The position numbers and the translations under genes were made by a program. Positions 1,772-34,744 of a stretch of DNA of 64,000 nucleotides are shown here, piece by piece. Positions within the stretch are counted from its first letter, which is position 1. Each line of letters opens with the position of its first letter. The notes below the pieces were generated by a model. It was not told where the DNA came from. It ran no database searches and saw only the letters and a program-made list of their open reading frames with translations. This stretch comes from Quadrisphaera granulorum (GTDB lineage Bacteria > Actinomycetota > Actinomycetes > Actinomycetales > Quadrisphaeraceae): assembly GCF_003149145.1 (NCBI RefSeq), contig NZ_QGDQ01000007.1, forward strand, positions 62,001-126,000, read 5' to 3'.

Positions 1772-2932
1772 ATGACGTCGAGCACCGCCGCTCCGGCCAC
1801 CACCGAGGTCGTCCCCTTCCACGCCGACCACGTCGGCAGCCTCCTGCGCCCGCCAGCGCTGCGGCGGGCCCGCGAGCAGCGCGCCGCCGGCGAGATCACC
1901 GCCGAGCAGCTGCGGGAGGTGGAGGACGCCGCCATCCGCGACGTCGTGCGCCGCCAGGCCGAGCTGGGGCTGCGCGTGGTGACCGACGGAGAGCTGCGCC
2001 GCCACTACTGGCACGAGGACTTCATCCTCTCCCTGGGCGGGGTGGAGGTGAAGGAGGCGTTCACGCGGCAGTTCCACACGCTCGACGGCGAGCCCATCGA
2101 CGTGCCGCTCACCCGGGTCAAGGCCACCGCGCCGGTGCACCTGGAGCAGACGGTCTTCGCCGACCACCTGGCCTTCCTGCAGCAGGCCGCGGCCGAGGTC
2201 GGGGCTGCGTCAGGCTTCGAGCAGACCCCCAAGCTGACCATGCCGTCGCCCAACCAGGTCCACAACACCTTCATCCCGCTCGACGGCACCGAGGCCTACG
2301 GCGAGGGCGGTCCGGGCACCGAGGCCGACGCGAGGCTGCGCGCCGACATCGCCGCCGCCTACGCCGAGCAGCTGCGGCGCCTGCACGCGCAGGGCCTGCG
2401 GTACGCGCAGCTGGACGACGTGTCGCTGACGTTCTTCGGAGACCCCAAGGGCGAGGGCCTCGCGGAGAGCCGGCTGCCGGCGTTCATCGACCTGTTCAAC
2501 GCCGCCATCGCCGACCGCCCGGCCGACCTCAAGGTCGCCACCCACCTGTGCCGCGGCAACTACCGCTCCTCGTGGGCGCAGACCGGCGGCTACGAGCAGA
2601 TCGCCGACAGGCTCTTCAACACCCTCGGTGTGGACGGCTACTTCCTCGAGTTCGACGACGAGCGGTCGGGCTCCCTCGACGTCCTGCGCTTCCTGCCGCC
2701 GGGCAAGCGCGTGGTGCTGGGCCTGGTCACCACCAAGGTGCCGGCCCTGGAGGACGAGGACGCCCTGGTGCGCCGCATCGAGGAGGCCGCGACGTTCGCG
2801 CCGCTGGAGCAGCTGGCGCTCAGCGGGCAGTGCGGCTTCAGCTCCACCGAGGAGGGCAACGACCTCACGGAGGACGAGCAGTGGCGCAAGCTGGAGCTCA
2901 TCGTCCGGGTGGCGCAGCGCGTCTGGGGCTGA
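1772..2932 (+). CDS. Cobalamin-independent methionine synthase-like methyltransferase (MetE C-terminal family)
   Basis: A 386-residue protein matching the catalytic C-terminal barrel of MetE, the 5-methyl-THF/homocysteine methyltransferase. It starts with FHADHVGSLLRP, contains VTDGELRRHYWHEDF, and keeps the zinc-site pattern LCRGNYRSSW (His/Cys) with QCGFSS near the C-terminus. The N-terminal half of full-length MetE is missing, as in the short YxjG/YxjH-type homologues. In this setting, close to folate-dependent O-demethylases, it may move methyl groups from methyl-THF onto a thiol acceptor and so regenerate THF. That role is inferred; it could equally serve methionine salvage. A strong hairpin follows the stop. 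Confidence 0.75.
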   Translation: MTSSTAAPATTEVVPFHADHVGSLLRPPALRRAREQRAAGEITAEQLREVEDAAIRDVVRRQAELGLRVVTDGELRRHYWHEDFILSLGGVEVKEAFTRQFHTLDGEPIDVPLTRVKATAPVHLEQTVFADHLAFLQQAAAEVGAASGFEQTPKLTMPSPNQVHNTFIPLDGTEAYGEGGPGTEADARLRADIAAAYAEQLRRLHAQGLRYAQLDDVSLTFFGDPKGEGLAESRLPAFIDLFNAAIADRPADLKVATHLCRGNYRSSWAQTGGYEQIADRLFNTLGVDGYFLEFDDERSGSLDVLRFLPPGKRVVLGLVTTKVPALEDEDALVRRIEEAATFAPLEQLALSGQCGFSSTEEGNDLTEDEQWRKLELIVRVAQRVWG

Positions 2933-3056: not shown

Positions 3057-3070
3057 CGCCCATGATCACG
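3057..3070 (-). repeat. Copy of the CGTGATCATGGGCG intergenic repeat at the ligJ stop
   Basis: On the minus strand the 14-mer CGTGATCATGGGCG includes the TGA stop of ligJ, so the element starts within the last codons of the gene. Confidence 0.6.
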
Positions 3071-4088
3071 GCGAGGGCGGAGCTCCGAGGTGGCGCTCGA
3101 GGCGGGGGTAGACCCGGCGGGCGTTGTGCTCGTAGACGTCGGCGCGCTGGGCGTCGGTGAGGCGGGCCGCCTCGACGTAGCGCCTGGTGTCGTCGAAGTG
3201 GTGCCCGGTGCGCGGGTCGACGCCGCGCACCGCGCCCACCATCTCGGACCCGAACAGCACGTTCGCCGTCGGCACGACGTCGAGCAGCAGGTCGACGCCA
3301 GACTGGTGGTAGACGCAGGTGTCGAACAGGACGTTGCCCATCAGCGCCTCCTCCACGGGAGGCCGTCCCAGCACGTCTGCGAGCCCCCGGAACCGCCCCC
3401 AGTGGTAGGGCACTGCTCCCCCGCCGTGCGGGATGACGAGCCGCAGGGTCGGGAAGTCGCGGAACAGGTCCGACTGCAGCAGCTGCATGAAGACGGTGGT
3501 GTCGGCGTTGAGGTAGTGCGACCCGGTGGCGTGCAGCGCGGGGTTGGTCACCGCCGAGACGTGCACCATCGCGGGCACGTCCAGCTCGCACAGCGCCTCG
3601 TACAGCGGGTACCAGGACCTGTCGCCCAGCGGCGGTGACGTCCAGGCGCCACCGCTGGGGTCGGGGTTGAGGTTCGCCCCGACGAAGCCCAGCTCCTCCA
3701 CGCATCGCCGCAGCTCCGGCACGGACGCCGCCGGCGGCGCTGCGGGCGACTGCGGCAGCTGGCAGGCGCCGGCGAACCGCCCAGGGAACAGCCCGACCAC
3801 CCGGGCGACGAGGTCGTTGCAGACCTCGCTCCAGGCCTCGCTGGTCCGCTGGTCGCCGAGGTGGTGCCCCATGGTGGAGGCGCGGGGGGAGAACAGCGTG
3901 ACGTCGACGCCGCGCTCGTCCATGAGGCGCAGCTGGCTCGCCTCGACGGCCCCGCGGACGTCGTCGTCGGAAACCTCGGGGTAGGGCGCGGGCTGATCCC
4001 CGGCCTCGCGGGCCCGCAGCAGCTCCGCGTGCCAGTCCGCGTGGGCCTGCGGCGCGGTGGTGAAGTGCCCGTGGCAGTCGATGATCAT
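3066..4088 (-). CDS. ligJ: 4-oxalomesaconate hydratase LigJ
   Basis: A 340-residue amidohydrolase-superfamily protein very close to LigJ of Sphingobium. It begins MIIDCHGHFTTAP with the metal ligand HGH, contains VTLFSPRASTMGHHLGD, NLNPDPSGG, VIPHGGGAVPYHWGRFRG and FDTCVYHQSGVDLL, and ends NARRVYPRLERHLG. LigJ hydrates 4-oxalomesaconate to 4-carboxy-4-hydroxy-2-oxoadipate in the lower part of the gallate and protocatechuate 4,5-cleavage routes. The ATG at 4088 is chosen because it puts the conserved MIIDCHGH at the N-terminus. It follows ligK with a 7-bp gap, so the two form one operon. Cytoplasmic. Confidence 0.93.
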   Translation of the reverse strand: MIIDCHGHFTTAPQAHADWHAELLRAREAGDQPAPYPEVSDDDVRGAVEASQLRLMDERGVDVTLFSPRASTMGHHLGDQRTSEAWSEVCNDLVARVVGLFPGRFAGACQLPQSPAAPPAASVPELRRCVEELGFVGANLNPDPSGGAWTSPPLGDRSWYPLYEALCELDVPAMVHVSAVTNPALHATGSHYLNADTTVFMQLLQSDLFRDFPTLRLVIPHGGGAVPYHWGRFRGLADVLGRPPVEEALMGNVLFDTCVYHQSGVDLLLDVVPTANVLFGSEMVGAVRGVDPRTGHHFDDTRRYVEAARLTDAQRADVYEHNARRVYPRLERHLGAPPSP

Positions 4089-4095
4089 CAGGGGG

Positions 4096-4800
4096 TCACT
4101 GCTGGCGGAGCCACTCGTCGTGGGTGACGTACTCGATGCCGAGGTCGGCGACCTTGCCCCGCATGCCGTACACGTCCAGCCCGAGGCGCCCCTCCTGGAA
4201 CGCCGCGCGGTTGGTCGCCTCCTTCTCCTCCCTGGCCGCTGCCGCGGCGAGCACCGCGGCCACGTCACCCCGGGGGACGACGACGACGCCGTCGTCGTCC
4301 CCGACCACCACGTCCCCGGGGTGCACGACCTGCCCGCCGAGGACGACGGGCGTGTTCACCGACCCGGGCGTCGCCTTGACCGTGCCCTGGGCGCTGACGG
4401 CGCGCGACCAGGCGGGGAAGCCCATCTGCTGGAGCTCCGCGACGTCGCGGACGCCGGTGTCGAGCACCACGCCCCGGACCCCGCGCCGCGCGAGCGCCGT
4501 GGCGAACAGCTCTCCGAAGAGCCCGTCGGTGGACGGCGAGGTGGTGGCCACCACCAGCACGTCGCCCTCGCGGCACTGCTCGACAGCCACGTGGATCATG
4601 AGGTTGTCACCGGGCCAGCACAGCGCCGTGACGGCCGTGCCGCCGATCCGCGCCCCCGGCCACGCCGGCCGGTGCTGCGGCCCGAGGTAGCCGCGCCGGC
4701 CCTGGGCCTCGTGCACGGTGGCGGTGCCGAAGCGCCCCAGGGCGGCGGCGTCCTCGACGTCGGCGCGCGGCGGGTCCGTGACCACGACCGTCCTGCTCAT
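4096..4800 (-). CDS. ligK: 4-carboxy-4-hydroxy-2-oxoadipate aldolase LigK
   Basis: A 234-residue protein of the RraA-like/HMG aldolase family. The metal-site motif GVVLDTGVRD and the preceding GDVLVVATT are present, as is the HEAQGRRGYL start region. LigK cleaves 4-carboxy-4-hydroxy-2-oxoadipate to pyruvate and oxaloacetate, the last step of the gallate/4,5-protocatechuate pathway. It is the first gene of ligK-ligJ and is divergent from a LigM-type O-demethylase across a 224-bp region that carries the 16-bp motif at 4893-4908. Confidence 0.9.
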   Translation of the reverse strand: MSRTVVVTDPPRADVEDAAALGRFGTATVHEAQGRRGYLGPQHRPAWPGARIGGTAVTALCWPGDNLMIHVAVEQCREGDVLVVATTSPSTDGLFGELFATALARRGVRGVVLDTGVRDVAELQQMGFPAWSRAVSAQGTVKATPGSVNTPVVLGGQVVHPGDVVVGDDDGVVVVPRGDVAAVLAAAAAREEKEATNRAAFQEGRLGLDVYGMRGKVADLGIEYVTHDEWLRQQ

Positions 4801-4908: not shown

Positions 4909-5024
4909 GCGGTGGTCACGGGCAGCAGCGGCGGGGCGCCGTCGTCATGCGCCGGTTCCCGGCCGCTGCGGCCGTCCGTAGCGTCCGCGGCGACGGCTCC
5001 CTCACCGACGAAAGGACGCCGACC

Positions 5025-6395
5025 ATGACCCGCGAGACCTCCGGCTCCCTCGCAGACGCGCTGGCCCGCGCGGGCGACCCCGTGCAGCTGCTGCGCAACC
5101 TCCAGAGCCGGGCGACCACGTTCCCCGTGCAGCCGGAGTTCACCAACTGGCGCTCCGAGCAGCACGCCTGGACCACCACGTGCGCCCTGCTGGACCAGTC
5201 CCACCACATGACCGACCTGTTCGTCTCCGGCCCCGACGCGCAGCGCCTGCTCAGCGACCTCGCGGTCAACTCCTTCGCGGGGTTCGGCGTGGGGAAGGCC
5301 AAGCAGTTCATCGCCGTCAGCCCCGAGGGGCTGCTCATCGGCGACGCGATCCTCTTCCACCTCGAGGAGGAGCTCTTCGACCTCGTGGGGCACCCCTTCG
5401 TGCTGGACTGGGTGCAGTTCCACCTCGAGCGCGGTGACTACGACGCGAAGGCCCAGCGCGACGACAACTCCGCCGTGCGCGCCTCCGGCCCGCCGCAGCT
5501 GTACCGCTACGAGCTGCAGGGCCCCACGGCCCTCGCCGTGGTCGAGGCCGCCAGCGGCGCGCCCGTGCCCGAGGTGAGGTTCTTCGGCACCACCCAGCTG
5601 ACCGTCGCCGGGCACCGCGTCACCGCCCTGCGCCACGGCATGGCGGGCCAGCCCGGCTTCGAGCTGTTCGGCCCCTGGGCCGACGGCGCCGACGTGCTGG
5701 CCGCGCTGCTCGAGGCGGGCGAGGCGCACGGCCTGGTGCGCGCGGGAGCGCGGGCGTACTCCACGGCCAACCTCGAGTCGGGCTGGGTGCCGGCGCCGTT
5801 CCCGGCGGTCTTCTCCGACCACCCGCTCATGGCGGAGTACCGGGCGTGGCTGCCCGCGGCGAAGGTCGGGTCCGTCGGCGGCAGCTTCACCGCCGACGAC
5901 GTGACCGCGTACTCCCTGGACCCGTACGAGGTCGGCTACGGGCGCAGCGTGAAGTTCGACCACGAGTTCATCGGGCGCGAGGCGCTGGAGCGGCGCGCGG
6001 CCGAGACCACCCGCACCAAGGTGACCCTCGTGTGGGACGCCGCCGACGTCGCCGACGCCATCGGGTCGCTGTTCCGCCCCGGGCCCGGCGCCAAGCACGT
6101 CGAGCTGCCCAAGGCGCGGTACGCCACCCACCACGTCGACGCGGTGCTGCACGACGGCGCCCCGGTCGGGGTGTCCCTGGACTGCGGCTACCTCGCCAAC
6201 GAGCGGGCGTTCGTCAGCCTGGCCGTCGTCGACGTCGCCCACGCCGAGCCGGGCACGCGCGTGGACGTGCTCTGGGGCGAGTCCCCGAACTCCACCAAGC
6301 CGCAGGTGGAGCCCCACGAGCAGCGCACCGTCCGGGCCACCGTGGCGCCGGCGCCCTTCGTGCAGTTCGCCCGCGAGAGCTACCGCGCGCGCTGA
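5025..6395 (+). CDS. Tetrahydrofolate-dependent aryl O-demethylase, DesA/LigM family
   Basis: A 456-residue GcvT-fold protein of the LigM/DesA family, which moves the methyl group of a methoxybenzoate to THF. Conserved stretches include PEFTNWRSEQHAW, LLDQSHHMTDLFVSG, RHGMAGQPGFELFGP and YGRSVKFDHEFIGR. It is more divergent from Sphingobium LigM than the second copy at 27705, so a DesA-like role on syringate (giving 3-O-methylgallate) is the better guess. The ATG at 5025 has an AAAGGA Shine-Dalgarno; an earlier in-frame start would read through the promoter. Divergent from ligK. Its last 80 codons are duplicated as a broken fragment at 27217-27455. Confidence 0.85.
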   Translation: MTRETSGSLADALARAGDPVQLLRNLQSRATTFPVQPEFTNWRSEQHAWTTTCALLDQSHHMTDLFVSGPDAQRLLSDLAVNSFAGFGVGKAKQFIAVSPEGLLIGDAILFHLEEELFDLVGHPFVLDWVQFHLERGDYDAKAQRDDNSAVRASGPPQLYRYELQGPTALAVVEAASGAPVPEVRFFGTTQLTVAGHRVTALRHGMAGQPGFELFGPWADGADVLAALLEAGEAHGLVRAGARAYSTANLESGWVPAPFPAVFSDHPLMAEYRAWLPAAKVGSVGGSFTADDVTAYSLDPYEVGYGRSVKFDHEFIGREALERRAAETTRTKVTLVWDAADVADAIGSLFRPGPGAKHVELPKARYATHHVDAVLHDGAPVGVSLDCGYLANERAFVSLAVVDVAHAEPGTRVDVLWGESPNSTKPQVEPHEQRTVRATVAPAPFVQFARESYRAR

Positions 6396-6454: not shown

Positions 6455-7261
6455 TCAGTACGCGGCGTGGGAGAGGTCGAGCGCTCCGCCGTCGACCGGC
6501 AGCACGGCACCGGTGACGAACGACGACGCCGCGGACGCCAGGAACAGCACCGGCCCGCGGACCTCGTCGGGCAGGCCCATGCGTCCGAGGGGGATGGTGT
6601 CGGCCCACGCCTGCTCGAGCTCGGGGCTCAGCTCGGCCTCGCCGCCGATGCGCGTGCCCTTGATGGGTCCCGGGGCGAGCGCGTTGACGCGGATGCCGCG
6701 GGGCGCCAGCTCGAGGGCCAGCTGGCGCACGAGGTTGACCTGCGCCGCCTTGGTGGCCGTGTAGCCGTACCCGACGAAGGGGTCCGAGCGCAGCCCCGCG
6801 GTGGACGACGTGACGATGATCCGCCCGCCGTCGCCCATCACGCGCGAGGCCTCGCGCAGCGTGTTGAACGTCGACGTGAGGTTGTTGGCCAGGGTCGACT
6901 GCCACTCGGCGTCGGAGACCGCGGCGATCCGCCCCTCCTCGGTGCGGTAGCTCGGCCCGCCCGCCACACCCGCGTTGGCCATGACGACGTCGAGCCGGCC
7001 GTGCTCGGCCACGACCCCGTCCACCGCGGCGCGCACCCAGGCCGGGTCCGACGCGTCCCCCAGCACGGTGCTGGCGGAGCCCCCGGCCGCCGCGATCCCC
7101 TCGGCCACCGCGCGGGTGCGCTCGGGGTGGCGCCCGTGGACCACCACGTGCGCACCGGCCAGCGCCAGCCCCTCGGCGGCGGCCCGGCCGATCCCGGACG
7201 AGGAGCCGGTCACCAGCGCCACCTGGCCCGACAGGTCGAAGAGGTGCGTCAGGTCGTCCAC
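6455..7261 (-). CDS. Short-chain dehydrogenase/reductase
   Basis: A 268-residue classical SDR: TGSSSGIG near residue 19, MANAGVAGG, the catalytic YTATK and a C-terminal PVDGGALD. It lies 117 bp downstream of ligB in the same direction and may be the last gene of the ligAB operon. Candidates are oxidation of an aromatic alcohol or of a ring-cleavage semialdehyde; the usual 4-carboxy-2-hydroxymuconate-semialdehyde dehydrogenase (LigC) belongs to another family, so I do not assign that function. It converges on ligM1. Confidence 0.7.
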   Translation of the reverse strand: MDDLTHLFDLSGQVALVTGSSSGIGRAAAEGLALAGAHVVVHGRHPERTRAVAEGIAAAGGSASTVLGDASDPAWVRAAVDGVVAEHGRLDVVMANAGVAGGPSYRTEEGRIAAVSDAEWQSTLANNLTSTFNTLREASRVMGDGGRIIVTSSTAGLRSDPFVGYGYTATKAAQVNLVRQLALELAPRGIRVNALAPGPIKGTRIGGEAELSPELEQAWADTIPLGRMGLPDEVRGPVLFLASAASSFVTGAVLPVDGGALDLSHAAY

Positions 7262-7378: not shown

Positions 7379-8236
7379 TCAGGCGGTGGCCGGGGCGCGG
7401 TTGTCGAAGAGGGCCACGGCCGCGGCGGTGTTGGACGCCGGCACGAAGTAGTGCGAGTGCACCTTGGTGACCTCGGCGCGCATGGCGCCGCGCATCACCA
7501 ACCACATGATCATCTCGATGCCCTCGGAGCCTGCCTCGCGGACGTAGTCCTGCCGCGACAGGGCCGTGAGGCGCTCCGGGTCGGTCTCGACCGCCTCCAT
7601 GAACATGGCGTCGAACTCGGGGTTGATGAACCCCGCGCGGGCGCCCGCCAGCTGGTGCGACATGCCGCCGGTGCCGAGCACGCCGACCTTGAGGTCCTGC
7701 GGGAAGCTCGCGATGGCCCGGCCCAGCGCCTGCCCCAGCGCGTAGCAGCGCGCGGCCGTGGGCTGCGGGTACTGGATGACGTTGACGAGGATCGGCACCA
7801 CCGGGCACGGCCACGCCTCGCCCGGGTCCGGCGTCCACACCGACAGCGGCACGGTCAGCCCGTGGTCGACGTCCAGCTCCTGGAACACCGTGAGGTCGAA
7901 GCCCTCGTCGACCAGGCTCTCCAGCAGGTGCAGCGACAGCTCGGGGTGACCGACGACGTCGGGCACGGGCCGCTTGCCGAAGCCCTCGTCCGCCACGTCG
8001 TAGTGGTCGGACGTGCCGATCGCGAACGTGGGGACGACGTCGAGGTCGATGCCGTTGGCGTGGTCGTTGTAGATGACGATGGCGACGTCGGGCCGGTGCT
8101 CGGCCAGCCAGGCCCGCGCCGGCGCGTAGCCGTCGAAGAGGTCCTTCCAGCTGGCGTCCTCGGTCTTGCCGCGGTCCATGGCCGCCCCGATCGACGGCAC
8201 GTGCGAGGTCGCCAGACCCCAGATGACCTCAGCCAC
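7379..8236 (-). CDS. ligB: Extradiol ring-cleavage dioxygenase, large (beta) subunit LigB
   Basis: A 285-residue LigB-fold (class III) extradiol dioxygenase. The iron-binding histidines are recognisable in TSHVPSIGAA near the N-terminus and in YNDHANGIDLD; GTGGMSHQLAG carries the catalytic histidine region, and a C-terminal acidic ligand is expected in GIEMIMWLVMRG. With LigA it opens protocatechuate 4,5, gallate or 3-O-methylgallate. Context (LigJ and LigK present, no LigC or LigI) favours gallate-type substrates. The GTG at 8236 is chosen because AGGAGGACGAC sits just before it; a GTG at 8251 is possible. It overlaps ligA by 8 bp. Confidence 0.88.
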   Translation of the reverse strand: MAEVIWGLATSHVPSIGAAMDRGKTEDASWKDLFDGYAPARAWLAEHRPDVAIVIYNDHANGIDLDVVPTFAIGTSDHYDVADEGFGKRPVPDVVGHPELSLHLLESLVDEGFDLTVFQELDVDHGLTVPLSVWTPDPGEAWPCPVVPILVNVIQYPQPTAARCYALGQALGRAIASFPQDLKVGVLGTGGMSHQLAGARAGFINPEFDAMFMEAVETDPERLTALSRQDYVREAGSEGIEMIMWLVMRGAMRAEVTKVHSHYFVPASNTAAAVALFDNRAPATA

Positions 8237-8609
8237 GTCGTCCTCCTGCACGCAGGGCCGCCAGGAACTCCTCCTCGGAGGTGCCGGTGAAGACGCCCCC
8301 CAGGTACTGCATCGAGCGGCCGTCCATCATCGCCAGCTTGTACACGTAGAAGATGCTCCCGCCGAGGTCGATCATGGCCTGCCAGTCGCGGTCGAGGACC
8401 GCCCGCTGCTGCTCGGCGGACAGCCCGAACGAGGCGCAGTAGCCGGCCTCGTCGGCGGTGAAGCGCTCGCGCGCCTCGGCGGTGCGCAGGCTCATGAACA
8501 TCTTGTTCATGCGGATGCCGCGCCGGCTGGTGGCGCCGTCGAAGATCGGCGTCCCGGGCACGTCGACCCGGCCGCCTCCCGTCGGCGCCCCGGCCGTCGG
8601 GCTGCTCAC
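8229..8609 (-). CDS. ligA: Extradiol ring-cleavage dioxygenase, small (alpha) subunit LigA
   Basis: A 126-residue LigA-domain protein, all-helical, with conserved NKMFMSLRTAEARERF, GLSAEQQRAVLDRDW and SIFYVYKLAMMDG. The alpha subunit caps the active site of LigB in the alpha2beta2 enzyme. The GTG at 8609 overlaps the stop of the preceding isomerase-like gene (GTGA). In Sphingobium DesB the two domains are fused in the reverse order; here they are separate and adjacent. Confidence 0.88.
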   Translation of the reverse strand: MSSPTAGAPTGGGRVDVPGTPIFDGATSRRGIRMNKMFMSLRTAEARERFTADEAGYCASFGLSAEQQRAVLDRDWQAMIDLGGSIFYVYKLAMMDGRSMQYLGGVFTGTSEEEFLAALRAGGRRG

Positions 8610-8884
8610 GACCGCTCCTGCGGGTGCGTCGCCAGCGCCTCGACGGTGACGTCCAGCCAGGGCGCCGCCGGCAGCGACGCCAGCGCGTCGTGCAGGGCGG
8701 TGGCGTCCGGGGCCTCGTAGAGGCCGATGGTCGCCGTGCGCCCGGGCACGCGCCAGAGCCGCTTGAGGGTCCCGGCCTCCCGCAGCTCGACCGCGCGGGC
8801 TCGCTCGGCGGTGCGGATGCGCTCGCGCACCTCCGGCGGGGTCTCGGGGGGCATGCGGTTCTCGGACCGCACGAGGAACTCCAC
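8606..8884 (-). CDS. Muconolactone delta-isomerase-like small protein
   Basis: A 92-residue protein with the size and pattern of muconolactone isomerase (CatC family): MEFLVRSENRMPPETPPEVRE at the start, a REAGTLKRLWRVPGR core, then GLYEAPDATALHDALASLPAAPW. Such proteins are decameric ferredoxin-like barrels that move double bonds in lactones. There is no catechol/muconate branch in the window. It lies inside the ligAB operon, 4-bp overlap with ligA, in a pathway that needs a tautomerase for 4-oxalomesaconate and has no LigU or GalD here. A role in that tautomerisation is inferred, not shown. Confidence 0.75.
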   Translation of the reverse strand: MEFLVRSENRMPPETPPEVRERIRTAERARAVELREAGTLKRLWRVPGRTATIGLYEAPDATALHDALASLPAAPWLDVTVEALATHPQERS

Positions 8885-8939: not shown

Positions 8940-9686
8940 TCAGGACGACGACGCGCGCGTCGTCCCGCGCGGTGCCGCGGCCAGCTCGAGCAGCGCGTCG
9001 GCCAGCGCCTGCGGCGCGGTGACCATCGCCTCGTGCCCGGTGGCGAGCTGCCGCACGGGCCAGCCGCGGGCGCGGGCGCGGTCGGCCTGCCCGGCGAAGA
9101 CGCCCATCCAGTCGGTGCACTCGACGAACGCGGCGGGCACGGCGTCCACGGCGCCCGTGAGCGACAGCGCGTCGGTGTAGGTGCGCCACGGGTGGGGCGT
9201 GAGCCGCGGGGTGAGCCAGGCGACGTCGGCGGGGTCGGTGACGCCGAGCACCTCCAGCGACCGCACCGGCACGAGCCACCCGAAGCCGAGCTCGGCGGCG
9301 GACTCGGCCCAGTGGTGCTCGACGCGCTCGGGCAGCAGCGCCCGGGCGGACTCGCCGTGGTCGCCGACGAAGGCGTCGAGGTGCACGCGCAGCGACACGA
9401 GGTCGGGGCGGCGGTCGGCCGCGGCGGTCACCACCTGGCCGGCGTAGCTGTGCCCGACGAGCACGACGTCGGGGTCCTGGGACCTGTCGAGCACGTCGAG
9501 CACGCGCACGACGTCCTCGACGTGCGCCTCCAGCCCGACCTGCGGCGAGAGCAGGTGCGCGCGCTCGGACAGGCCCGTGAGCGTCGGGGCCACCACGTGG
9601 TGGCCGGCGGCGCGCAGGTGCGGGGCCACGCGGTCCCAGCACCAGCCGCCGTGCCAGGCGCCGTGGACCAGGACGAACGTGCTCAC
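8940..9686 (-). CDS. Alpha/beta-hydrolase (esterase type), first gene of the ligAB operon
   Basis: A 248-residue alpha/beta-hydrolase of the plant-esterase/hydroxynitrile-lyase-like branch: FVLVHGAWHGGWCW oxyanion region, nucleophile GHSYAG near residue 80, and the histidine in LATGHEAMVTAPQALAD. The GTG at 9686 follows GGGAGGAGC at good spacing. It is 55 bp upstream of the isomerase-like gene. In the 3-O-methylgallate route ring cleavage gives a methyl ester (CHMOD) whose hydrolysis yields 4-oxalomesaconate and methanol; this hydrolase is a candidate for that step. Removal of other esters, such as feruloyl or methyl esters, is an alternative. Confidence 0.72.
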   Translation of the reverse strand: MSTFVLVHGAWHGGWCWDRVAPHLRAAGHHVVAPTLTGLSERAHLLSPQVGLEAHVEDVVRVLDVLDRSQDPDVVLVGHSYAGQVVTAAADRRPDLVSLRVHLDAFVGDHGESARALLPERVEHHWAESAAELGFGWLVPVRSLEVLGVTDPADVAWLTPRLTPHPWRTYTDALSLTGAVDAVPAAFVECTDWMGVFAGQADRARARGWPVRQLATGHEAMVTAPQALADALLELAAAPRGTTRASSS

Positions 9687-9856: not shown

Positions 9857-10549
9857 TCACCGCGGGCTGACGAGGCCCTCCCTGACGGCGAGGAGCGCGG
9901 CCTGGGTGCGCGAGGCCAGGCCCATCTTGGCCAGCAGGTGGCTCACGTGGGTGCGTGCGGTCCGCTCGCTGATGACCAGCTGGTCGGCGATCTCCTGGTT
10001 GGAGCGCCCCTCGGCCACCAGCACGAGCACCTCCCGCTCCCGCGCGGTGAGCGCGCCGAGGCCCACGCGCGGCGCGCGCATCTCCTGCGTGAGGCGCCGG
10101 GTGACCGCGGCGTCGAGGAAGACCTCGTCGCGCACGGCGGCGCGCAGCGCGGCCTCCACCTCCGCGGGACCGGCGTCCTTGAGCAGGTAGCCGGACGCGC
10201 CGCGCTCCAGCGCGGCGTGTACGCGCTCGGTCTCCCCGAAGCTGGTGAGGATCACCACCTTGACCCCGGGGAAGCGGCGCACCACCTCCTCGGTGGCGGC
10301 CACGCCGTCCAGGCGCGGCATCTGCAGGTCCATGAGGACGACGTCGGGCAGCTCGCTGAGCACGGCCTGCTGCGCCAGGCGCTCGAGGGCGGCGCGGCCG
10401 TCCTCGGCCTCCCCCACCACCTCCACGTCCTCCAGGGCGTCGAGGTAGGCGACCACGCCGCGGCGCACCACGGCGTGGTCGTCGACGACGAGCACCGTGA
10501 TCGTGCTGCCGGTGCCGCCCGCGCCGCCCGTGCTGCCGGCGCCGCTCAC
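9857..10549 (-). CDS. Response regulator, NarL/LuxR type
   Basis: A 230-residue two-domain regulator. The receiver holds the acidic pocket VVDDHAV, the phosphorylated aspartate D74 in VLMDLQMP, T in ILTSF and K in GYLLKDAGP. The output domain is a LuxR helix-turn-helix (LTAREREVLVLVAEGRSNQEIADQLVISERTARTHVSHLLAKMG). The GTG start overlaps the stop of the kinase gene by 4 bp. It lies between the folate operon and the ligAB operon and may control one of them, including through the nearby 16-bp motif; this link is inferred from position only. Confidence 0.88.
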   Translation of the reverse strand: MSGAGSTGGAGGTGSTITVLVVDDHAVVRRGVVAYLDALEDVEVVGEAEDGRAALERLAQQAVLSELPDVVLMDLQMPRLDGVAATEEVVRRFPGVKVVILTSFGETERVHAALERGASGYLLKDAGPAEVEAALRAAVRDEVFLDAAVTRRLTQEMRAPRVGLGALTAREREVLVLVAEGRSNQEIADQLVISERTARTHVSHLLAKMGLASRTQAALLAVREGLVSPR

Positions 10550-12096
10550 CGCCGGTCCTCCCCGCGCACCACGGGCACCACCAGGCGGACCCGGGTGCCC
10601 CCGCCGTCCTCAGCCACCACGTCGACCTCTCCTCCCCAGCGGTGCGCGCGCTCGCGCATCGCCGTCATGCCGTACCCGCCGGAGCTCGCGCGGCTCCCCG
10701 GCTGCCCGCCGGCCGCTGCGGCGCCCGGCCCCGCCGCTGCGTCGTGCCTCGCGCCGCGCCCGTCGTCCACCACGTCCACCACCACGCGCGGCCCCGTGGC
10801 CGTGGCGCCGACCACCACCGCCACGTCGAGGCGGCTCGCCCCGGCGTGCTTCACGGTGTTGTGCACCGCCTCGCTGGCCACGCGGTAGACGTCCTCGGCC
10901 AGCTCGACGTCCAGCGCCGGGAGGTCGCCCCCGGCGTCGTCGATGGTGAGGTCGCAGGCCAGGGCGCTGCGCGCGGCGGTGGCCTCCAGCAGGGAGCGCA
11001 GCGCCGTCCCGAGGCTCGTGCCGGACGGCACCGCCGGGCGCAGCTCCACCACCATGCCGCGCAGGTCGGCGAGGGCGTCCTCGGCGGCGCCGCTCAGCTC
11101 TCCGGCGATGGTGGCGAGCCTCTCGGCCGAGGGCGGCAGGCCCCGCCGCGCGAGCACGCCGAGGGAGCCGGCCTGCATCATGATCGAGAAGACCTGCTGC
11201 ACCACGGAGTCGTGGAGGTCGCGCGCCAGCTTCTGCCGCTCCTCGCGGCGGGCCTCGTCCATCCGCCGCTGGAACAGCTCGGCGTGGTCGACGGCCACGG
11301 CGGCCTGGTCGGCCATGGCCAGCAGGAAGCCGAGCTCGGCCTCCCCCACCTCCTGGCCGGGCGCGAAGAAGGCGTTGAGCACGCCGACCGCGCCGCCGCG
11401 GATGCGCAGCGGCACGCTGGCGAAGGCGTCCCAGGGGGTGGCGCTCATGTAGTCGTGCAGGGGCTCCCAGGCCGGGTCGCCCATGATCGCGTCGAAGCGG
11501 TGCTGCAGCACCCGCGGGACGCCGCTGCGCAGCGACTCGACCATCTCCAGGCGCGCGCCCCGCGCCTGGCACTCCAGGAGCCTGTCGAAGAAGTCGGGGA
11601 TGCGGCTGAAGCCGGCGGTGCCCAGCACGTGCAGGCGCGCGCCGGCCGGGGTGGCGAGCAGCACCTGCACCCCCGCGAGCGCCGCGGCCTGCTGCGCCTC
11701 CTCGGCGAGGGCCTCCAGGGTGCTGGCGAGGGAGCGCTCGGCGGTGACGCTGAACGCGGCCCGGGCCATCGCGGCCAGCCGCCGCTCCTGCCGCCGGGCC
11801 TCGCTGACGTCGCGGAAGGCGACGACGCGCTGGTCGGTGCCGGGCACCGGGGCGGTGGTGCAGGCGAAGGCGCGCTGCTCGCCGTCGGGCCTGGTCCACT
11901 CGACCACCACCTCCCCCGCCTCCGCAGCGCCGTCGGCGGCGAACGGGGCGGGCCTGCCGACCAGGTCGGCGGCGGGTGCGCCGCACAGGCGGGAGGCCGC
12001 GGCGTTCGCGGCCACGAAGCGACCGGCACCGTCGACGACGGCCAGGCCCTGGGGGCTGTGGGCGACGGCGACGGCGCCCCACTCCTCCGGCTCCAC
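10546..12096 (-). CDS. Soluble sensor histidine kinase with PAS and GAF domains
   Basis: A 516-residue kinase with no membrane segment. A PAS domain (about 1-120, HSPQGLAVVDGAGRFVAANAAA) is followed by a GAF-like domain (about 140-300), a HisKA_3 dimerisation segment with the phospho-acceptor in ARDLHDSVVQQVFSI near residue 293, and an HATPase_c domain with the N-box (SEAVHNTVKHAG) and DDGRG/GGYGMTAMRERA. A Ala/Gly-rich stretch breaks the HATPase before the last motif. A cytoplasmic ligand is therefore expected. The GTG at 12096 has GGAGG at 8 bp. Divergent from purU. Confidence 0.85.
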   Translation of the reverse strand: MEPEEWGAVAVAHSPQGLAVVDGAGRFVAANAAASRLCGAPAADLVGRPAPFAADGAAEAGEVVVEWTRPDGEQRAFACTTAPVPGTDQRVVAFRDVSEARRQERRLAAMARAAFSVTAERSLASTLEALAEEAQQAAALAGVQVLLATPAGARLHVLGTAGFSRIPDFFDRLLECQARGARLEMVESLRSGVPRVLQHRFDAIMGDPAWEPLHDYMSATPWDAFASVPLRIRGGAVGVLNAFFAPGQEVGEAELGFLLAMADQAAVAVDHAELFQRRMDEARREERQKLARDLHDSVVQQVFSIMMQAGSLGVLARRGLPPSAERLATIAGELSGAAEDALADLRGMVVELRPAVPSGTSLGTALRSLLEATAARSALACDLTIDDAGGDLPALDVELAEDVYRVASEAVHNTVKHAGASRLDVAVVVGATATGPRVVVDVVDDGRGARHDAAAGPGAAAAGGQPGSRASSGGYGMTAMRERAHRWGGEVDVVAEDGGGTRVRLVVPVVRGEDRR

Positions 12097-12283
12097 GTCC
12101 GTGCCTCCGCGCTCCGGCCGCGGGCGTGCTGCCGGCGGCGCTGTCCGGACCGATGGTGGCACCCGGCCAGGATCGACCACGACGTCCTCCCGGGTGTACG
12201 ACGAACGTCTCGCCGTGCGCGGCCGGTCGACCGAGGCGCCACCGGGGGCGGCGTCCGTAGCGTCGCCGCGGAGGTGTTCACCG

Positions 12284-13228
<945 letters not shown>

Positions 13229-13239
13229 GGGGTGACGAC

Positions 13240-14103
13240 GTGACGGCACAGTTGATCGACGGCACGACGGCGGCCCGTGAGCTGCGGACGGAGGTGGCCG
13301 ACGGCGTCAGGGCCTTCGTCGCTGACGGCGGCCGACCTTCGGGGCTCGCGACCGTGCTGGTGGGTGACGACGCCGCCTCCCAGGTGTACGTGCGCAGCAA
13401 GCAGCGCGCGTGCGTGGAGGCCGGCATGGTCGACCACCACCGGCACCTGCCGGGAGACGTCACGCAGGAGCAGGCGGGTGCCGTCCTGGACGAACTGGCC
13501 GCAGACCCGGAAGTCTCCGGAGTCCTCCCGCAGCTGCCGCTGCCGGCCCACCTCGACGCTGATGCTCTGCTGGCGCGGATCCCCGCCCTCAAGGACGTCG
13601 ACGGGCTGACCACCGAGAGCGCCGGGCTGCTCGCCCAGGGACGCGCTGGGCGGCAGCCCTGCACCCCAGCCGGTGTCGTGCACCTGCTCGACCGCACCGG
13701 CGTGCAACTGCGCGGCGCGGAGGCCGTGGTGGTCGGTAGGTCGGTGCTGGTCGGGCGTCCGATGGCTCAGCTGCTCCTCCAGCGCGATGCGACCGTCACG
13801 CTGTGCCACTCCCGCACGCGCGACCTGGAGGAGGTCTGCCGCCGCGCCGACGTGCTCGTGGTGGCAGCCGGCATCCCCGGTCTCGTGGGCGCCGACGCCG
13901 TGAAGCCCGGGGCGGTCGTCGTCGACGTGGGCATCCACCGCGTCGAGGGTGGTCTGACCGGCGACGTCGACGGCCAGACCGCCGCGTCCGTGGCCGGGTG
14001 GCTGACCCCGGTGCCCGGCGGCGTCGGGCCGATGACCATCGCCGTGCTGCTGGCGAACACGCTGCAAGCGGCCCGCCTCCAGCGCGCCGCCCACGCGGGG
14101 TGA
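13240..14103 (+). CDS. folD: Methylene-THF dehydrogenase/methenyl-THF cyclohydrolase FolD
   Basis: A 287-residue bifunctional enzyme. The substrate lysine/tyrosine motif YVRSKQRA, GVLPQLPLPAH, PCTPAGVV, the dinucleotide motif VVGRSVLVGRPMA and TPVPGGVGPMTIA are all present. It oxidises methylene-THF to methenyl-THF and hydrolyses that to 10-formyl-THF, which PurU then uses. The GTG at 13240 lies 11 bp after purU. The 4-bp overlap with folE shows the operon continues. Probably a dedicated copy for O-demethylation, in addition to a housekeeping one elsewhere; that cannot be checked in this window. Confidence 0.93.
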   Translation: MTAQLIDGTTAARELRTEVADGVRAFVADGGRPSGLATVLVGDDAASQVYVRSKQRACVEAGMVDHHRHLPGDVTQEQAGAVLDELAADPEVSGVLPQLPLPAHLDADALLARIPALKDVDGLTTESAGLLAQGRAGRQPCTPAGVVHLLDRTGVQLRGAEAVVVGRSVLVGRPMAQLLLQRDATVTLCHSRTRDLEEVCRRADVLVVAAGIPGLVGADAVKPGAVVVDVGIHRVEGGLTGDVDGQTAASVAGWLTPVPGGVGPMTIAVLLANTLQAARLQRAAHAG

Positions 14104-14699
14104 GCGCCGTGCCCGCGGACCTGCTGGTCACCGACAGGCCCGGGGTCGACCTGGAGGCCGCGACCACAGCAGCCGCCGCGTTCCTGCAGGCCCTGGGAGT
14201 CGACACCGACCGGCCCGGACTGGACCGCACCCCCGAGCGCATGGCCCGCGCCTACGCCGAGCTGTTCGACGCCGGCCCGGTGGAGCTGACCACCTTCCCG
14301 AACGAGGAGGCGTACGACGAGGTGGTGCTGGCCCGGGGCATCCCCTTCCGGTCGGTCTGCGAGCACCACCTCCTGCCGTTCGTGGGGGTGGCGCACGTGG
14401 GGTACCTGCCCGGGGAGCGGATCGTGGGCCTGTCCAAGCTGGCTCGGGTGGTGGAGCACCTCGCCGCCGGCCCACAGGTGCAGGAGCGGCTCACCAGCCA
14501 GGTGGCTCGGCTGCTGCAGGATCGGCTCCGGCCGCGCGGCGTCGGCGTCGTCCTGGACGCCGAGCACCTCTGCATGAGCGTGCGCGGCGTCCGCGCCACC
14601 GGGGCCCGTACCCGCACCTCGGCACTGCTGGGGCGGATGCGTTCCGACGCCCGTACCCGGGCAGAGTTCCTCGCCCTGACGGGGACGGGGGCAGCATGA
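14100..14699 (+). CDS. folE: GTP cyclohydrolase I FolE
   Basis: A 199-residue GTP cyclohydrolase I. Zinc ligands are visible in SVCEHHLLPF (C87, H90) and in EHLCMSVRGV; GYLPGERIVGLSKLARVVE and RLTSQVA are the substrate-site motifs. It makes dihydroneopterin triphosphate, the first step of folate synthesis. The GTG at 14100 overlaps the folD stop (GTGA); a GTG at 14109 is an alternative. Placing folE in a catabolic C1 operon is unusual and suggests that folate supply is raised when methoxy-aromatics are used. Confidence 0.93.
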   Translation: MSAVPADLLVTDRPGVDLEAATTAAAAFLQALGVDTDRPGLDRTPERMARAYAELFDAGPVELTTFPNEEAYDEVVLARGIPFRSVCEHHLLPFVGVAHVGYLPGERIVGLSKLARVVEHLAAGPQVQERLTSQVARLLQDRLRPRGVGVVLDAEHLCMSVRGVRATGARTRTSALLGRMRSDARTRAEFLALTGTGAA

Positions 14700-15454
14700 G
14701 CCGTGTGGACGACGACCCCGGCACGACCTCGCCGTCCGCGGAGGGCCCCCGCTCCAGCGTGGTGACCGGGGGTGGTCGCGGGCTGGGACGCGCGATCGCC
14801 GAACGGCTCCAGCGCGACGGGCACCGCGTGGCGGTGCTCGACGTCGAGGTGGGCGCCCCCCTGCCCGGTGCGCTGCTCCTGCCCTGCGACGTCACCGAGC
14901 CCGACGCGGTGATGGCGGCGGTCGCGGCCGTCGTCGACGCTCACGGCGGGCTGGACGTGCTCGTCAACGGTGCGGGGCTCATCTCTCCGCGCACGTCGTA
15001 CCGGGAGAGCACCAAGGAGGAGCTGGTCCGCTACCTCACGACCAACGCGGTGAGCTGCGCGCTGACCGTGCAGGCCGCCCACGACCACCTCGTGGCCAGC
15101 GGCCGGGGCGCGGTGGTGAACATCGCCTCGCGGACGTTCTTCACCGGGAGCCCCGGGCAGCTCGGGTACGTGGCGAGCAAGGGCGCGGTCCTCGGCATCA
15201 CCCGCGTGCTGGCCCGAGAGCTGGGCCCGCAGGGGGTGACGGTGAACGCTGCGGTGCCCGGACAGGTCGCCACCCCCGGTACGCGGGAGCACCTGTCCGA
15301 CGCCGACTTCAACCGCACGATGGCGCAGCAGGCCATCCCCCGCCGTGGGCAGCCGCACGACCTCGCCGGGCTGGTGTCGTTCCTGGCCGGAGACGACGCC
15401 CGGATGATCACCGGCCAGACGGTCGTGTGCGACGGTGGCGGGCTGATGCACTGA
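14696..15454 (+). CDS. SDR family oxidoreductase, last gene of the folate operon
   Basis: A 252-residue SDR: TGGGRGLG, a VNGAGLIS variant of the NAG motif, catalytic YVASK and a C-terminal VVCDGGGLMH. It overlaps folE by 4 bp, so it belongs to the purU-folD-folE operon. By position it could be a pteridine or dihydrofolate reductase of the FolM/PTR1 kind, but it lacks the TGxxxR signature that marks many of those, so this is only a guess. A dehydrogenase for an aromatic substrate is the other option. Confidence 0.65.
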   Translation: MSRVDDDPGTTSPSAEGPRSSVVTGGGRGLGRAIAERLQRDGHRVAVLDVEVGAPLPGALLLPCDVTEPDAVMAAVAAVVDAHGGLDVLVNGAGLISPRTSYRESTKEELVRYLTTNAVSCALTVQAAHDHLVASGRGAVVNIASRTFFTGSPGQLGYVASKGAVLGITRVLARELGPQGVTVNAAVPGQVATPGTREHLSDADFNRTMAQQAIPRRGQPHDLAGLVSFLAGDDARMITGQTVVCDGGGLMH

Positions 15455-27216: not shown

Positions 27217-27455
27217 GCGCCCCCATCGGGTGTCCCTGGACTGCGGCTACCTCGCCGACGAACGCGCCTTCGTCAGCCTGTTCGTCGTCGAGGCCGAGCA
27301 CGCCGAGCCCGGCACCCGGATGGAGGTGCTGTGGGACGAGTCACCGGACTCCACCAAGCCCCAGGTGGAGCCACACCAGCAGCGCACCCTGCGCGCCGCC
27401 GTGGCCCCGGCCCCGTTCGTGCAGTTCGCTCGGGGAGCTGTCGCGCCCGCTGCCC
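27217..27455 (+). pseudogene. Broken 3' fragment of a ligM-type O-demethylase gene
   Basis: Its translation (for example VSLDCGYLADERAFVSL and DSTKPQVEPHQQRTLRA) matches the last 75-80 residues of the ligM1 product closely; the DNA match runs against 6157-6396. The rest of the gene is absent, the frame reads past the position of the original stop, and no start or ribosome site is seen. It lies between the apc operon and ligM2, so it looks like a scar of duplication or of the insertion of the apc block. Confidence 0.8.
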
Positions 27456-27545: not shown

Positions 27546-29956
<2,411 letters not shown>

Positions 29957-32594: not shown

Positions 32595-33644
32595 CTACGG
32601 GAGGCGCAGCACCAGCTCCGCCGGCTCGCCTCCGCCCTCGGCACCCGGCGCGGCGGCCACGCGGGACACGCACACGCACAGCGACGTGCCCGCCTCCTGC
32701 TGGCGCCGGCTGAGGAAGACGTCGCGGTGGTCGACGACGCCGCGCACGGAGGCGACCTCGATGCGGCACAGCCCGCACTCGCCCTTGCGGCAGTCGTACA
32801 TGAGGTCCGCCCCGGCCCGCTGCAGGGCCTCCAGCAGCGTGGTGTCGGGCCCCACCGTGGTGCGCAGCCCGATCTCGGGGATGCACGCGGTGAACGGCTG
32901 CGGGGCGTACCAGCCCGAGCTGCCGAACGTCTCGAACCTCAGCGTGCTCGCCGGCAGGTCGGCCGCCTCCCAGCCCCGGCGCACCGCGTCCATGAGCCGG
33001 ATCGGCCCGCAGACGTAGGCCTCCACGCCGCCGGGCACCCGCTCGTGCTCCGCGGCCAGCTCCGCCACCAGGGCGGCGACGTCGAAGGGCCCGTGCTCGT
33101 CGTCGACGTGGAGGCGGTAGCGGTCGCCCAGCAGCTCGGCCAGCTCCGCGGCGTACGCCGCCCGGGTGCGCGTGCGCACCACGTGGTCGAGGACCACGTC
33201 GGCGCCGCGCGCGGCCAGGCGCCGGGCCATCGCCACCAGCGCGGTGACGCCGATGCCGCCGGCCACCAGGTGGTAGCGCCCGGCGCCCAGGCGCAGCGGG
33301 AAGCCCTGCAGCGGGGCGCTGCACTCGACGTCGTCCCCCACCGCCAGGGAGTGCACGTAGCGCCCGCCCCCGCGGGAGGTCGGCGTGAGGAGCACCGAGA
33401 TGGCCGAGCGCGTGCCGTCGGCGCTGGCCTCGACCACGGAGTAGGAGCGCACCTCGCGCCCGGCCGGGGTGTGCACGGCCAGCTGCAGGTGGGCCCCGGG
33501 CTCGGCGGGACGCCCGGGCGCGTGCTCCAGCACCACGCGCCGGACCCCGTCGGCCACGTCGCGGGCCTCGACCACGCGCGCCGGCCGCAGCGCGGCGCCC
33601 GCCGCGGACGCACCCACCGCCGCGCTGGTCGGCGAGGCGCTCAC
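32595..33644 (-). CDS. vanB: Vanillate O-demethylase, ferredoxin-reductase subunit VanB
   Basis: A 349-residue reductase: FMN/NAD-binding domains of the phthalate-dioxygenase-reductase type (RSYSVVEAS, VAGGIGVTALVAMARRL, YVCGPIRLMDAVRRGW) followed by a C-terminal plant-type 2Fe-2S ferredoxin with CRKGECGLC and a last cysteine in SLCVCVS. VanB passes electrons from NADH to VanA. The GTG at 33644 overlaps the vanA stop (GTGA). About 30 residues longer at the N-terminus than many VanB proteins, mainly an Ala-rich leader. Confidence 0.92.
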   Translation of the reverse strand: MSASPTSAAVGASAAGAALRPARVVEARDVADGVRRVVLEHAPGRPAEPGAHLQLAVHTPAGREVRSYSVVEASADGTRSAISVLLTPTSRGGGRYVHSLAVGDDVECSAPLQGFPLRLGAGRYHLVAGGIGVTALVAMARRLAARGADVVLDHVVRTRTRAAYAAELAELLGDRYRLHVDDEHGPFDVAALVAELAAEHERVPGGVEAYVCGPIRLMDAVRRGWEAADLPASTLRFETFGSSGWYAPQPFTACIPEIGLRTTVGPDTTLLEALQRAGADLMYDCRKGECGLCRIEVASVRGVVDHRDVFLSRRQQEAGTSLCVCVSRVAAAPGAEGGGEPAELVLRLP

Positions 33645-34744
33645 ACCCGGCCCTCGGAGCGCAGCATCTCGTCGAGGATGCGCCGCACCCACATGCCGCC
33701 GGCGTCGATGTTGAGCGAGTAGAACTCCTTGCCGGGGTTGGCGTCGATGGCGCGCTGCTGCGCGGCGAGCATCGCCTCGTCCTCCCCGAACACCCCGTGC
33801 ACGCCCTCGCGCAGCTGGGTGGTGATGAGCTGGCTGTCCAGGCGGTAGTTGCGCATGAACGCCCAGAAGTAGTGCGAGCTGCGCTCGGTCTCGGGCGTGA
33901 TGGTGTTCATGACGTAGCCGTTGACGCCCTGGCTGCGGTCGCCCTCCGGAGCGCCGGTGCCCGTGGGTGCCACGCCCACGTCGATGCAGATGGTGGACGG
34001 CGCGTAGTAGTGGATGATCTGCCAGCGGTCCACGCGCCCGTCGAAGTCGGGGAACCTGTCGCGGATGTTCTTCAGCCAGAACGGCGGCGGGGCCACGTCG
34101 CGCATCCACCGGGTCACGCTGACCGACCCGTCGGCCTCGCGGCGGGTGGTGAACTCCGACTCGCTCAGCTCGTCCTGGCCGATGCTGGAGTGGTGCACGA
34201 ACTCCTCGTGCGTGAGGTCCATGAGGTTGTCGAGCACCAGCTGGTAGTTGCACGGCGCCTCGATGGTCAGGCCGTCACCGGCCCACTCCGGGGAGTCCAT
34301 CTGGTGCATGTCGGGGATGGACGCCGGGTCGGCCAGCAGCGGGTCGCCGGGCCACACCCACACGTACCGGTACCGCTGCTCCACCGGGTAGGACGTCACC
34401 AGCGCACTGGGGTTGACGGTCTCCTGCGCCGGCATCTTGGTGCAGCGGCCCGCGGAGTTGTACTGCAGCCCGTGGTACGGGCACTGGATGCCGTCGCGGC
34501 CCACCAGGGTGCCCATCGACAGCGGCGCCAGCCGGTGCCAGCACGCGTCGGCCAGCGCCACCGGGCGTCCGTCGGCGGTGCGGTACAGCGCCATCGGCTG
34601 CCCCGCGACGGTGCGCGCCAGCGGCTTCTGGGAGGTCACCTCGTGGTCCCACGCGGCGGCGTACCAGGCGTTGAGGGGGAAGGGGAAGATCTTGGCGTTG
34701 ACCTGCCCGGGCGCCGCGAGCGGCTCTGCCTGCACGTCGGTCAT
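33641..34744 (-). CDS. vanA: Vanillate O-demethylase, Rieske oxygenase subunit VanA
   Basis: A 367-residue Rieske non-heme iron oxygenase. The Rieske cluster ligands are in CWHRLAPLSMG (near residue 69) and CPYHGLQYN (near 87); the mononuclear iron site follows in NLMDLTHEEFVHHSSIG. VanAB oxidises the methoxy group of vanillate to give protocatechuate and formaldehyde. It starts an operon with vanB. A TTCCG-N5-CGGAA palindrome lies about 80 bp upstream (34826-34840). Confidence 0.93.
   Translation of the reverse strand: MTDVQAEPLAAPGQVNAKIFPFPLNAWYAAAWDHEVTSQKPLARTVAGQPMALYRTADGRPVALADACWHRLAPLSMGTLVGRDGIQCPYHGLQYNSAGRCTKMPAQETVNPSALVTSYPVEQRYRYVWVWPGDPLLADPASIPDMHQMDSPEWAGDGLTIEAPCNYQLVLDNLMDLTHEEFVHHSSIGQDELSESEFTTRREADGSVSVTRWMRDVAPPPFWLKNIRDRFPDFDGRVDRWQIIHYYAPSTICIDVGVAPTGTGAPEGDRSQGVNGYVMNTITPETERSSHYFWAFMRNYRLDSQLITTQLREGVHGVFGEDEAMLAAQQRAIDANPGKEFYSLNIDAGGMWVRRILDEMLRSEGRV

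Follow-up and report, generated by a model that had tools for sequence, protein, structure and literature searches.

The closest described systems for degradation of 3-O-methylgallate are those of Pseudomonas NGC7 and Novosphingobium aromaticivorans. In NGC7, MgaAB, the alpha/beta-hydrolase MgaC, and the putative MgaD are assigned to the sequence from 3-O-methylgallate to CHMOD, CHMA, and finally OMA (PMC12314914). Deletion of mgaC stopped growth and led to a buildup of PDC, which NGC7 cannot use, and without mgaD, cultures on syringate ended at roughly half the density of the wild type (PMC12314914). In N. aromaticivorans, the alpha/beta-hydrolase DesC and the glutathione-S-transferase DesD (PMC12997858) act on CHMOD (PMC6888825), a compound that cyclises spontaneously to PDC (PMC8091115). 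Both MgaD and DesD are described as nonessential (PMC12314914). LigU/GalD delivers KCH, the substrate of the hydratase (PMC12314914, PMC6888825), and for a gallate cleavage product only the keto form was observed (PMC8431788). Bacterial syringate catabolism has been called largely unknown, and, on the basis of homologues of known enzymes, some Actinomycetes have been predicted to possess complete syringate pathways (PMC12314914); the accessible text of that paper mentions no MIase protein in connection with this prediction. Among the open-licence papers listed, judged mostly by their titles and the beginnings of their abstracts, we found none that connects 3-O-methylgallate, CHMA, or OMA with a protein of the muconolactone-isomerase family.

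The locus described here lies in a 64,000-nt stretch of the Quadrisphaera granulorum genome, referred to in its entirety as the window. An open reading frame at 8606-8884 on the minus strand, with a GTG start codon, encodes a 92-aa protein whose only Pfam family is PF02426 (MIase; E 2.8e-30), covering residues 1-89 at 104.7 bits against a gathering score of 26.7; it has no PrpF (PF04303), SnoaL, or GST homology. The original prediction of a 92-aa CatC-family protein overlapping ligA holds, since the 3′ end of the gene and the start of ligA overlap by 4 bp. The frame is a real gene rather than a chance one, given a copy with 97% identity in one genome of the same genus (four of the five other genus genomes have no copy of the clade) and 79 further loci at 68 to 83% identity. 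Along the minus strand, the alpha/beta-hydrolase gene (8940-9686, PF12697) comes before the isomerase gene, ligA (8229-8609, PF07746), and ligB (7379-8251, PF02900), after which lies a short-chain dehydrogenase (6455-7261, minus strand, PF13561) that is inconstant among relatives. The ligA-like gene encodes the small subunit and the ligB-like gene the catalytic subunit of a class III extradiol dioxygenase; among solved structures, the latter matches 1b4u_B best (E 2.6e-96). The hydrolase gene, 55 bp upstream of the isomerase gene, is proposed to encode a CHMOD methylesterase with an MgaC/DesC-like role. Its closest solved relatives are in the SABP2/hydroxynitrile-lyase group, the match extending mainly across the first half of the protein; methylesterases are among the members of this group.

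The isomerase resembles MgaD, the proposed CHMA tautomerase, in having genes for a LigAB-type dioxygenase and an alpha/beta-hydrolase alongside its own, but MgaD belongs by description to the SnoaL/NTF2 family rather than PF02426, and NGC7 also has GalD (PMC12314914). DesD is similarly a partner of an alpha/beta-hydrolase, DesC, in the conversion of CHMOD (PMC6888825), whereas by description it is a member of the GST family (PMC12997858). LigU/GalD differs in belonging to the PrpF family, and CatC and ClcF differ in their gene partners, as the window isomerase is not in the company of catA or catB. When CatA and CatB of this genome were used as tblastn queries against the window, CatB had no match and CatA a single partial one (34%, 49293-49658), about 40 kb away, in agreement with the statement, made from the DNA alone, that catechol and muconate genes are not close by.

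Also on the minus strand of the window lie ligK/galC, for the CHA aldolase (4096-4800; above the cut-off of NCBIfam NF006731 and slightly under that of TIGR02798, at 294.3 of 304.5), and ligJ, for the KCH hydratase (3066-4088; best solved match LigJ 6dwv, E 2.5e-152). A LigM/DesA-type H4folate-dependent O-demethylase is encoded on the plus strand at 4947-6395 (best solved match LigM 5tl4, E 1.2e-120), and a second one, 49% identical to it, at 27705-29105 (plus strand, PF01571). Just 5′ of this second gene (47%), a 71-aa stretch at 27221-27433 (plus strand) is 80% identical to the window LigM and seems to be what is left of a further LigM gene. The cobalamin-independent methionine-synthase-like protein at 1772-2932 (plus strand, NF005085 above cut-off) is possibly used for methyl-H4folate disposal; a like-named gene is also found close to the Rhodococcus opacus plasmid cluster discussed below. 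Genes for GTP cyclohydrolase I and for a short-chain dehydrogenase lie at 13803-15454 (plus strand), and this region, with the two H4folate-dependent demethylases, may represent a folate supply for O-demethylation. The window also contains a VanA/VanB-like pair (33620-34681 and 32661-33575, both minus strand) with 36% and 38% identity to the pair from Microtetraspora. Upstream of the operon, a NarL-type response regulator (9857-10549, minus strand, PF00072 and PF00196) and a GAF/PAS histidine kinase (10546-12864, minus strand, PF07730 and PF13185; ORF limits, true start uncertain) together form a candidate sensor for methoxylated aromatics at 9857-12864 (minus strand).

The AlphaFold model of the window isomerase has a pLDDT of 96.3, and its best structural matches are ClcF and CatC, with TM scores of 0.92 to 3znu and 0.91 to 1mli; among the closest solved structures is 3zo7, titled as ClcF E27A with substrate. 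In CatC and ClcF, a carboxylate base shifts a proton on a conjugated lactone, and 3zo7 points to Glu27 as that base. Glu27, encoded at 8804-8806 in the window, is kept in 79 of 79 isomerase rows and in all 12 CatC/ClcF rows, so that the catalytic residue of CatC, the conservation of which the original prediction had put forward as a check, is retained. Length, Trp44, Arg45, Gly48, His65, and His87 are also common to the clade and CatC. A 91-row tree separates the 79 isomerases (the window protein and 78 loci; L100, with a truncated isomerase, was omitted here and from the conservation table) from the 12 CatC/ClcF rows with branch support of 100/100, although it comes from a short alignment in which long branches meet and thus shows a split, not a dated history. 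The clade differs steadily from CatC at positions 28, 35, 40, 54, and 76, and in most cases also at 9 and 52, with the caveat that the 79 loci were required to contain one of two exact peptides of the query, EFLVRSEN or ATIGLYEA, so that selection accounts for part of the constancy at positions 2-9 and 51-58. CatC has Val at 9, Asn at 52, Ser at 54, and Tyr at 76. Arg28, Arg35, and Arg49 are found in 79 of 79 clade rows, but in few or none of the 12 CatC/ClcF rows; these arginines would suit a tricarboxylate substrate. In an independent class sample with eight members of the clade, Arg28, Arg35, Arg49, Gly54, and Trp76 are invariant (8/8), with Arg42 in seven and Asn9 and Thr52 in six.

Beyond this clade, more distant proteins of the MIase family were also seen. 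Two 1.5-Mb genomes (L222, G377; L224, G484) encode proteins of about 40% identity, outside the clade, that have Glu27 and Trp76 but not Arg28 or Arg35. Proteins at 46 to 53% identity (L218, L220, L221, L233, and L234) form at least one further branch with another residue set; two members of this set are plasmid borne, in stretches without annotated LigAB, and one such plasmid entry is a 1.7-kb gene, reflecting either a fusion or the annotation. The neighbourhoods of two relatives at 46% were unlike the LigAB-type cluster.

A scan of genome contigs yielded the 79 loci, all titled Actinomycetota; counts for these are lower bounds, as contig ends cut some flanks. The most constant partner of the isomerase is the alpha/beta-hydrolase, paired with it in 78 of 79 loci, always codirectional and with a median gap of 31 bp; the one locus without it, L100, is that with the truncated isomerase match. 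Of the 79 loci, 66 have LigA and 69 have LigB no more than 10 kb from the isomerase, and 69 have at least one of the two. The survey of actinobacterial operons envisaged in the original prediction did reveal the same neighbour, with isomerase, ligA, and ligB directly consecutive in 37 loci. In 15 others, ligAB lies further downstream on the same strand, in 9 the order is ligA-ligB-hydrolase-isomerase, and 5 have other arrangements (L037, L038, L040, L050, and L078); four have ligB only (L028, L029, L034, and L095), and nine have neither. LigK, LigJ, or GalB is within 10 kb in 41 of 79 loci, a LigM- or VanA-type demethylase (at least 40%) in 60, and a NarL-type regulator and a kinase are both nearby in 56. 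CatB is near the isomerase in none of the 79 loci, and CatA is present in six, only as distant matches (32 to 36%). Five loci (L093, L095, L096, L099, and L100) have none of ligA, ligB, ligK, ligJ, galB, and ligM under the thresholds used. In four Demequina genomes the hydrolase-isomerase pair is away from ligAB, with LigB elsewhere at just 53 to 54%.

The class sample of 394 genomes, which was not picked by isomerase motifs, supports the hydrolase-isomerase pairing: the hydrolase is within 1.5 kb of the isomerase in seven of eight clade members besides our own. The exception, L214 (G321), has galB and ligK beside the isomerase and, in the same genome, a 68% hydrolase beside ligAB. A LigB-like match is found in 18 of the 394 genomes. 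The isomerase clade (at least 63%) is present in 6 of 6 genomes with LigB of at least 70%, compared to 3 of 388 others (Fisher p 1.7e-11, a value that overstates the association, related genomes not being independent). The LigB and isomerase draws were taken as the same genomes, as the listed handles agree. Among the six, the isomerase is within 1.5 kb of ligB in four, and in G295 and G391 the two are on one contig, 12 to 15 kb apart. Five genomes have LigB at 52 to 55% only, and two of these (G321 and G383) have the isomerase clade; G331, the third extra holder, lacks any LigB-like match at 1e-30.

The dioxygenase itself gives some indication of the substrate. In SYK-6 LigA, Phe103 sets selectivity for the C5 substituent, and replacing Phe103 made the enzyme more active toward gallate and 3-O-methylgallate, the replacements named in the accessible text being residues other than Met (PMC10094722). 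In an alignment with 1b4u_A, Met100 of the window LigA takes this position. Met is likewise present in 66 of 66 LigAs of the 79 loci, in the LigA of the R. opacus plasmid, and in the six closest LigAs of the class sample. Seven class LigAs at 33 to 46% identity have, in loose alignments, Tyr, Leu, Ile, Phe, Ile, Asn, and Asn. Both of those with Ile (L185 and L187) come from the isomerase holders G321 and G383, so Met is not universal among holders. Met at this position fits with room for a bulkier C5 group, which falls short of proof for 3-O-methylgallate.

The original prediction also noted that no LigU or GalD was visible. This is true genome-wide: PF04303 gave no matches in the window genome (99% complete, 86 contigs), so a ligU/galD gene elsewhere under the same control, named there as grounds for refutation, was not found, and there were none in all six genomes of the genus, our own included. 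We looked further in 50 relatives hand-picked from the 79 for their genera and contexts. PrpF is present in 32 of these, together with the same isomerase, and missing in 18. In 28 of the 32 it is within about 6 kb of ligK, and one such ligK-adjacent PrpF matches solved LigU at E 1.6e-114. Across the 79 loci PrpF is within 10 kb of the isomerase in five; in Kineococcus rubinsiae a single run contains hydrolase, isomerase, ligA, ligB, ligK, PrpF, and then ligJ. The isomerase thus does not make LigU dispensable everywhere, and in those other genomes PrpF may serve for OMA derived from gallate or PDC. LigJ or GalB is found in 49 of the 50 relatives (LigJ at no less than 57% identity, GalB at 1e-20, with two of the GalB matches partial), and one or both are kept by 17 of the 18 relatives that lack PrpF, the exception being G188, in which the isomerase is truncated. 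The GalB query matches the solved 4-oxalomesaconate hydratase 5cgz at E 2.1e-74. Five other amidohydrolase ORFs in the window genome were given no NCBIfam name, and one of them might be LigI. LigB is at 70% or above in 40 of the 50 and at 52 to 54% in 5; in the remaining cases, three Microtetraspora genomes are at 37 to 39% and G187 and G188 are without a good match.

Seven genomes, from Microtetraspora, Pseudonocardia, Planosporangium, and Micromonospora, have runs with one gene per step, and none of the seven contains PrpF. In Microtetraspora (L028, L029, and L034), eight genes in one direction encode VanB-like, GalB, LigK/GalC, LigB-like, LigA-like, and VanA-like proteins, the hydrolase, and the isomerase, the LigB-like/LigA-like pair being mgaB-mgaA. 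In L041, L042, L039, and L052, the order is VanB-like, GalB, LigK, VanA-like, hydrolase, isomerase, ligA, and ligB; the L041 genome has a LigJ match elsewhere, with an in-frame stop. Planosporangium mesophilum (L023) has a run of the L041 type minus GalB, in a genome with LigJ and PrpF. Most simply, the one-gene sets would lead from syringate through 3-O-methylgallate, CHMOD, CHMA, KCH, and CHA to pyruvate and oxaloacetate, and the window-type isomerase would be the sole gene of a known isomerase family in such runs. In Nonomuraea (L048), genes for LigM, LigK, and GalB are divergent from a methylenetetrahydrofolate reductase gene, followed by ligA, ligB, hydrolase, and isomerase.

A related set is found on a plasmid typed as mobilizable, the 745-kb pRop44186_a of R. 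opacus DSM 44186 (NZ_CP082159.1, 469738-494013; L229), with an isomerase of 73% identity. It includes genes for an aminomethyltransferase and MTHFR, purU, a folD-like gene, a small gene that carries the annotation protocatechuate 3,4-dioxygenase but aligns with LigA, one for a class III extradiol dioxygenase subunit, the hydrolase, the isomerase, a regulator, a putative kinase, and LigK and PIG-L genes. The record names the pair generically, as alpha/beta fold hydrolase and muconolactone Delta-isomerase family protein. The plasmid also has folE, folP, pabB, and an FdhF-type oxidoreductase. A hydrolase plus SnoaL pair in a LigAB operon was sought near plasmid-borne relatives of the hydrolase (46 to 51%), and in three of the 150 matching records the neighbourhoods were of other kinds.

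The computations show the family and fold of the protein, the conservation of Glu27, a clade of its own, its gene partners, and the absence of PrpF from the window genome. Starting from these, we lean slightly toward the view that the window protein belongs to the ring-cleavage route for 3-O-methylgallate (syringate), as a specialised isomerase of the MIase family. In this route, LigAB would open 3-O-methylgallate to give the methyl ester CHMOD, which the neighbouring alpha/beta-hydrolase would demethylate to the dienol CHMA (4-carboxy-2-hydroxymuconate). CHMA is a dienol tricarboxylate, for which protonation at C5 should give KCH and at C3 OMA. With Glu27 as a proton shuttle as in CatC and ClcF, the isomerase would convert CHMA to KCH (or OMA); LigJ or GalB would hydrate KCH to CHA, and LigK/GalC would cleave this to pyruvate and oxaloacetate. 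We favour the ester route with CHMA over plain gallate cleavage because of the constant hydrolase partner (78/79) and the Met-containing LigAs (66/66), and KCH as the product because PrpF is absent from genomes that keep a hydratase. The logic of dioxygenase, alpha/beta-hydrolase, and tautomerase parallels that of NGC7, where mutants support it (PMC12314914). Against our view stand the relatives with PrpF, the Ile in the LigAs of G321 and G383, and the Demequina pairs apart from ligAB. Given that MgaD and DesD are nonessential, the isomerase may merely speed a partly spontaneous step; in addition, the window LigM could turn 3-O-methylgallate into gallate, bypassing the ester route.

The original prediction was of an OMA tautomerase, in which keto-OMA from gallate would be converted to KCH by the isomerase as a nonhomologous stand-in for LigU/GalD. 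This had the right kind of reaction: isomerase chemistry fits, the window genome has LigJ and LigK, PrpF is lacking from the six genus genomes and from 18 of 50 relatives, 17 of them with a hydratase, and for gallate, a cleavage product has been observed in the keto form alone (PMC8431788). However, it leaves the constant hydrolase partner, which had been overlooked, unexplained, and because PrpF coexists with the isomerase in 32 of 50 relatives, mostly near ligK and in Kineococcus within one gene run, the protein is not simply a LigU replacement. The pathway branch is probably wrong, and we regard this reading as unlikely. One can also envision, in line with what has been suggested for MgaD and DesD, an accessory cis-trans isomerase that acts on only a single stereoisomer of CHMOD or CHMA, with the LigU-like step carried out by another protein or occurring spontaneously. 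The partial growth of the mgaD mutant on syringate (PMC12314914) and the presence of PrpF in those 32 relatives would be consistent with such a role, but the PrpF-less genomes with complete runs would then be without a known next isomerase, making it, in our estimation, a little less likely again.

There are two further readings. In the catechol branch, CatC and an alpha/beta-hydrolase act successively on lactones. A CatC/PcaD-like pair might work on a pyrone, with the hydrolase opening the lactone PDC and the isomerase acting on PDC or its product; the known PDC hydrolase, LigI, is, against this, an amidohydrolase. The spontaneous cyclisation of CHMOD to PDC (PMC8091115) favours such a pair, yet loss of the hydrolase in NGC7 led to PDC accumulation in a strain unable to use PDC (PMC12314914), and we consider the idea very improbable. 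Finally, the PF02426 match and the retained catalytic Glu could be those of an ordinary muconolactone isomerase misplaced in the operon. At 72.3 bits, the protein is well short of the TIGR03221 equivalog cut-off of 130.6, and two other PF02426 proteins of the same genome score better as CatC, one adjoining genes of the catechol-dioxygenase and MLE types and the other an MLE-type gene. With the separate clade and the lack of CatB at all 79 loci, these results rule out an ordinary CatC for practical purposes, and we find a misplaced one scarcely credible.

Returning to the isomerase of the 3-O-methylgallate route, the sequence comparisons indicate a real, conserved subfamily of known fold whose role is probably new; it would be the third unrelated isomerase for this step, after MgaD (SnoaL) and DesD (GST). 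More tentatively, and with a probability that we would put somewhat below even, the isomerase takes CHMA to KCH in one step, so that a single gene for each reaction, without LigU/GalD, would suffice to degrade syringate to pyruvate and oxaloacetate, through recruitment of the muconolactone-isomerase fold across many Actinomycetota. If our proposal is true, the isomerase and methylesterase steps would be filled for a compact syringate route held by Geodermatophilaceae, Streptomyces, Pseudonocardia, Nonomuraea, Rhodococcus, and others; two generically annotated genes would gain names, and a third unrelated family would be added to one isomerisation step.
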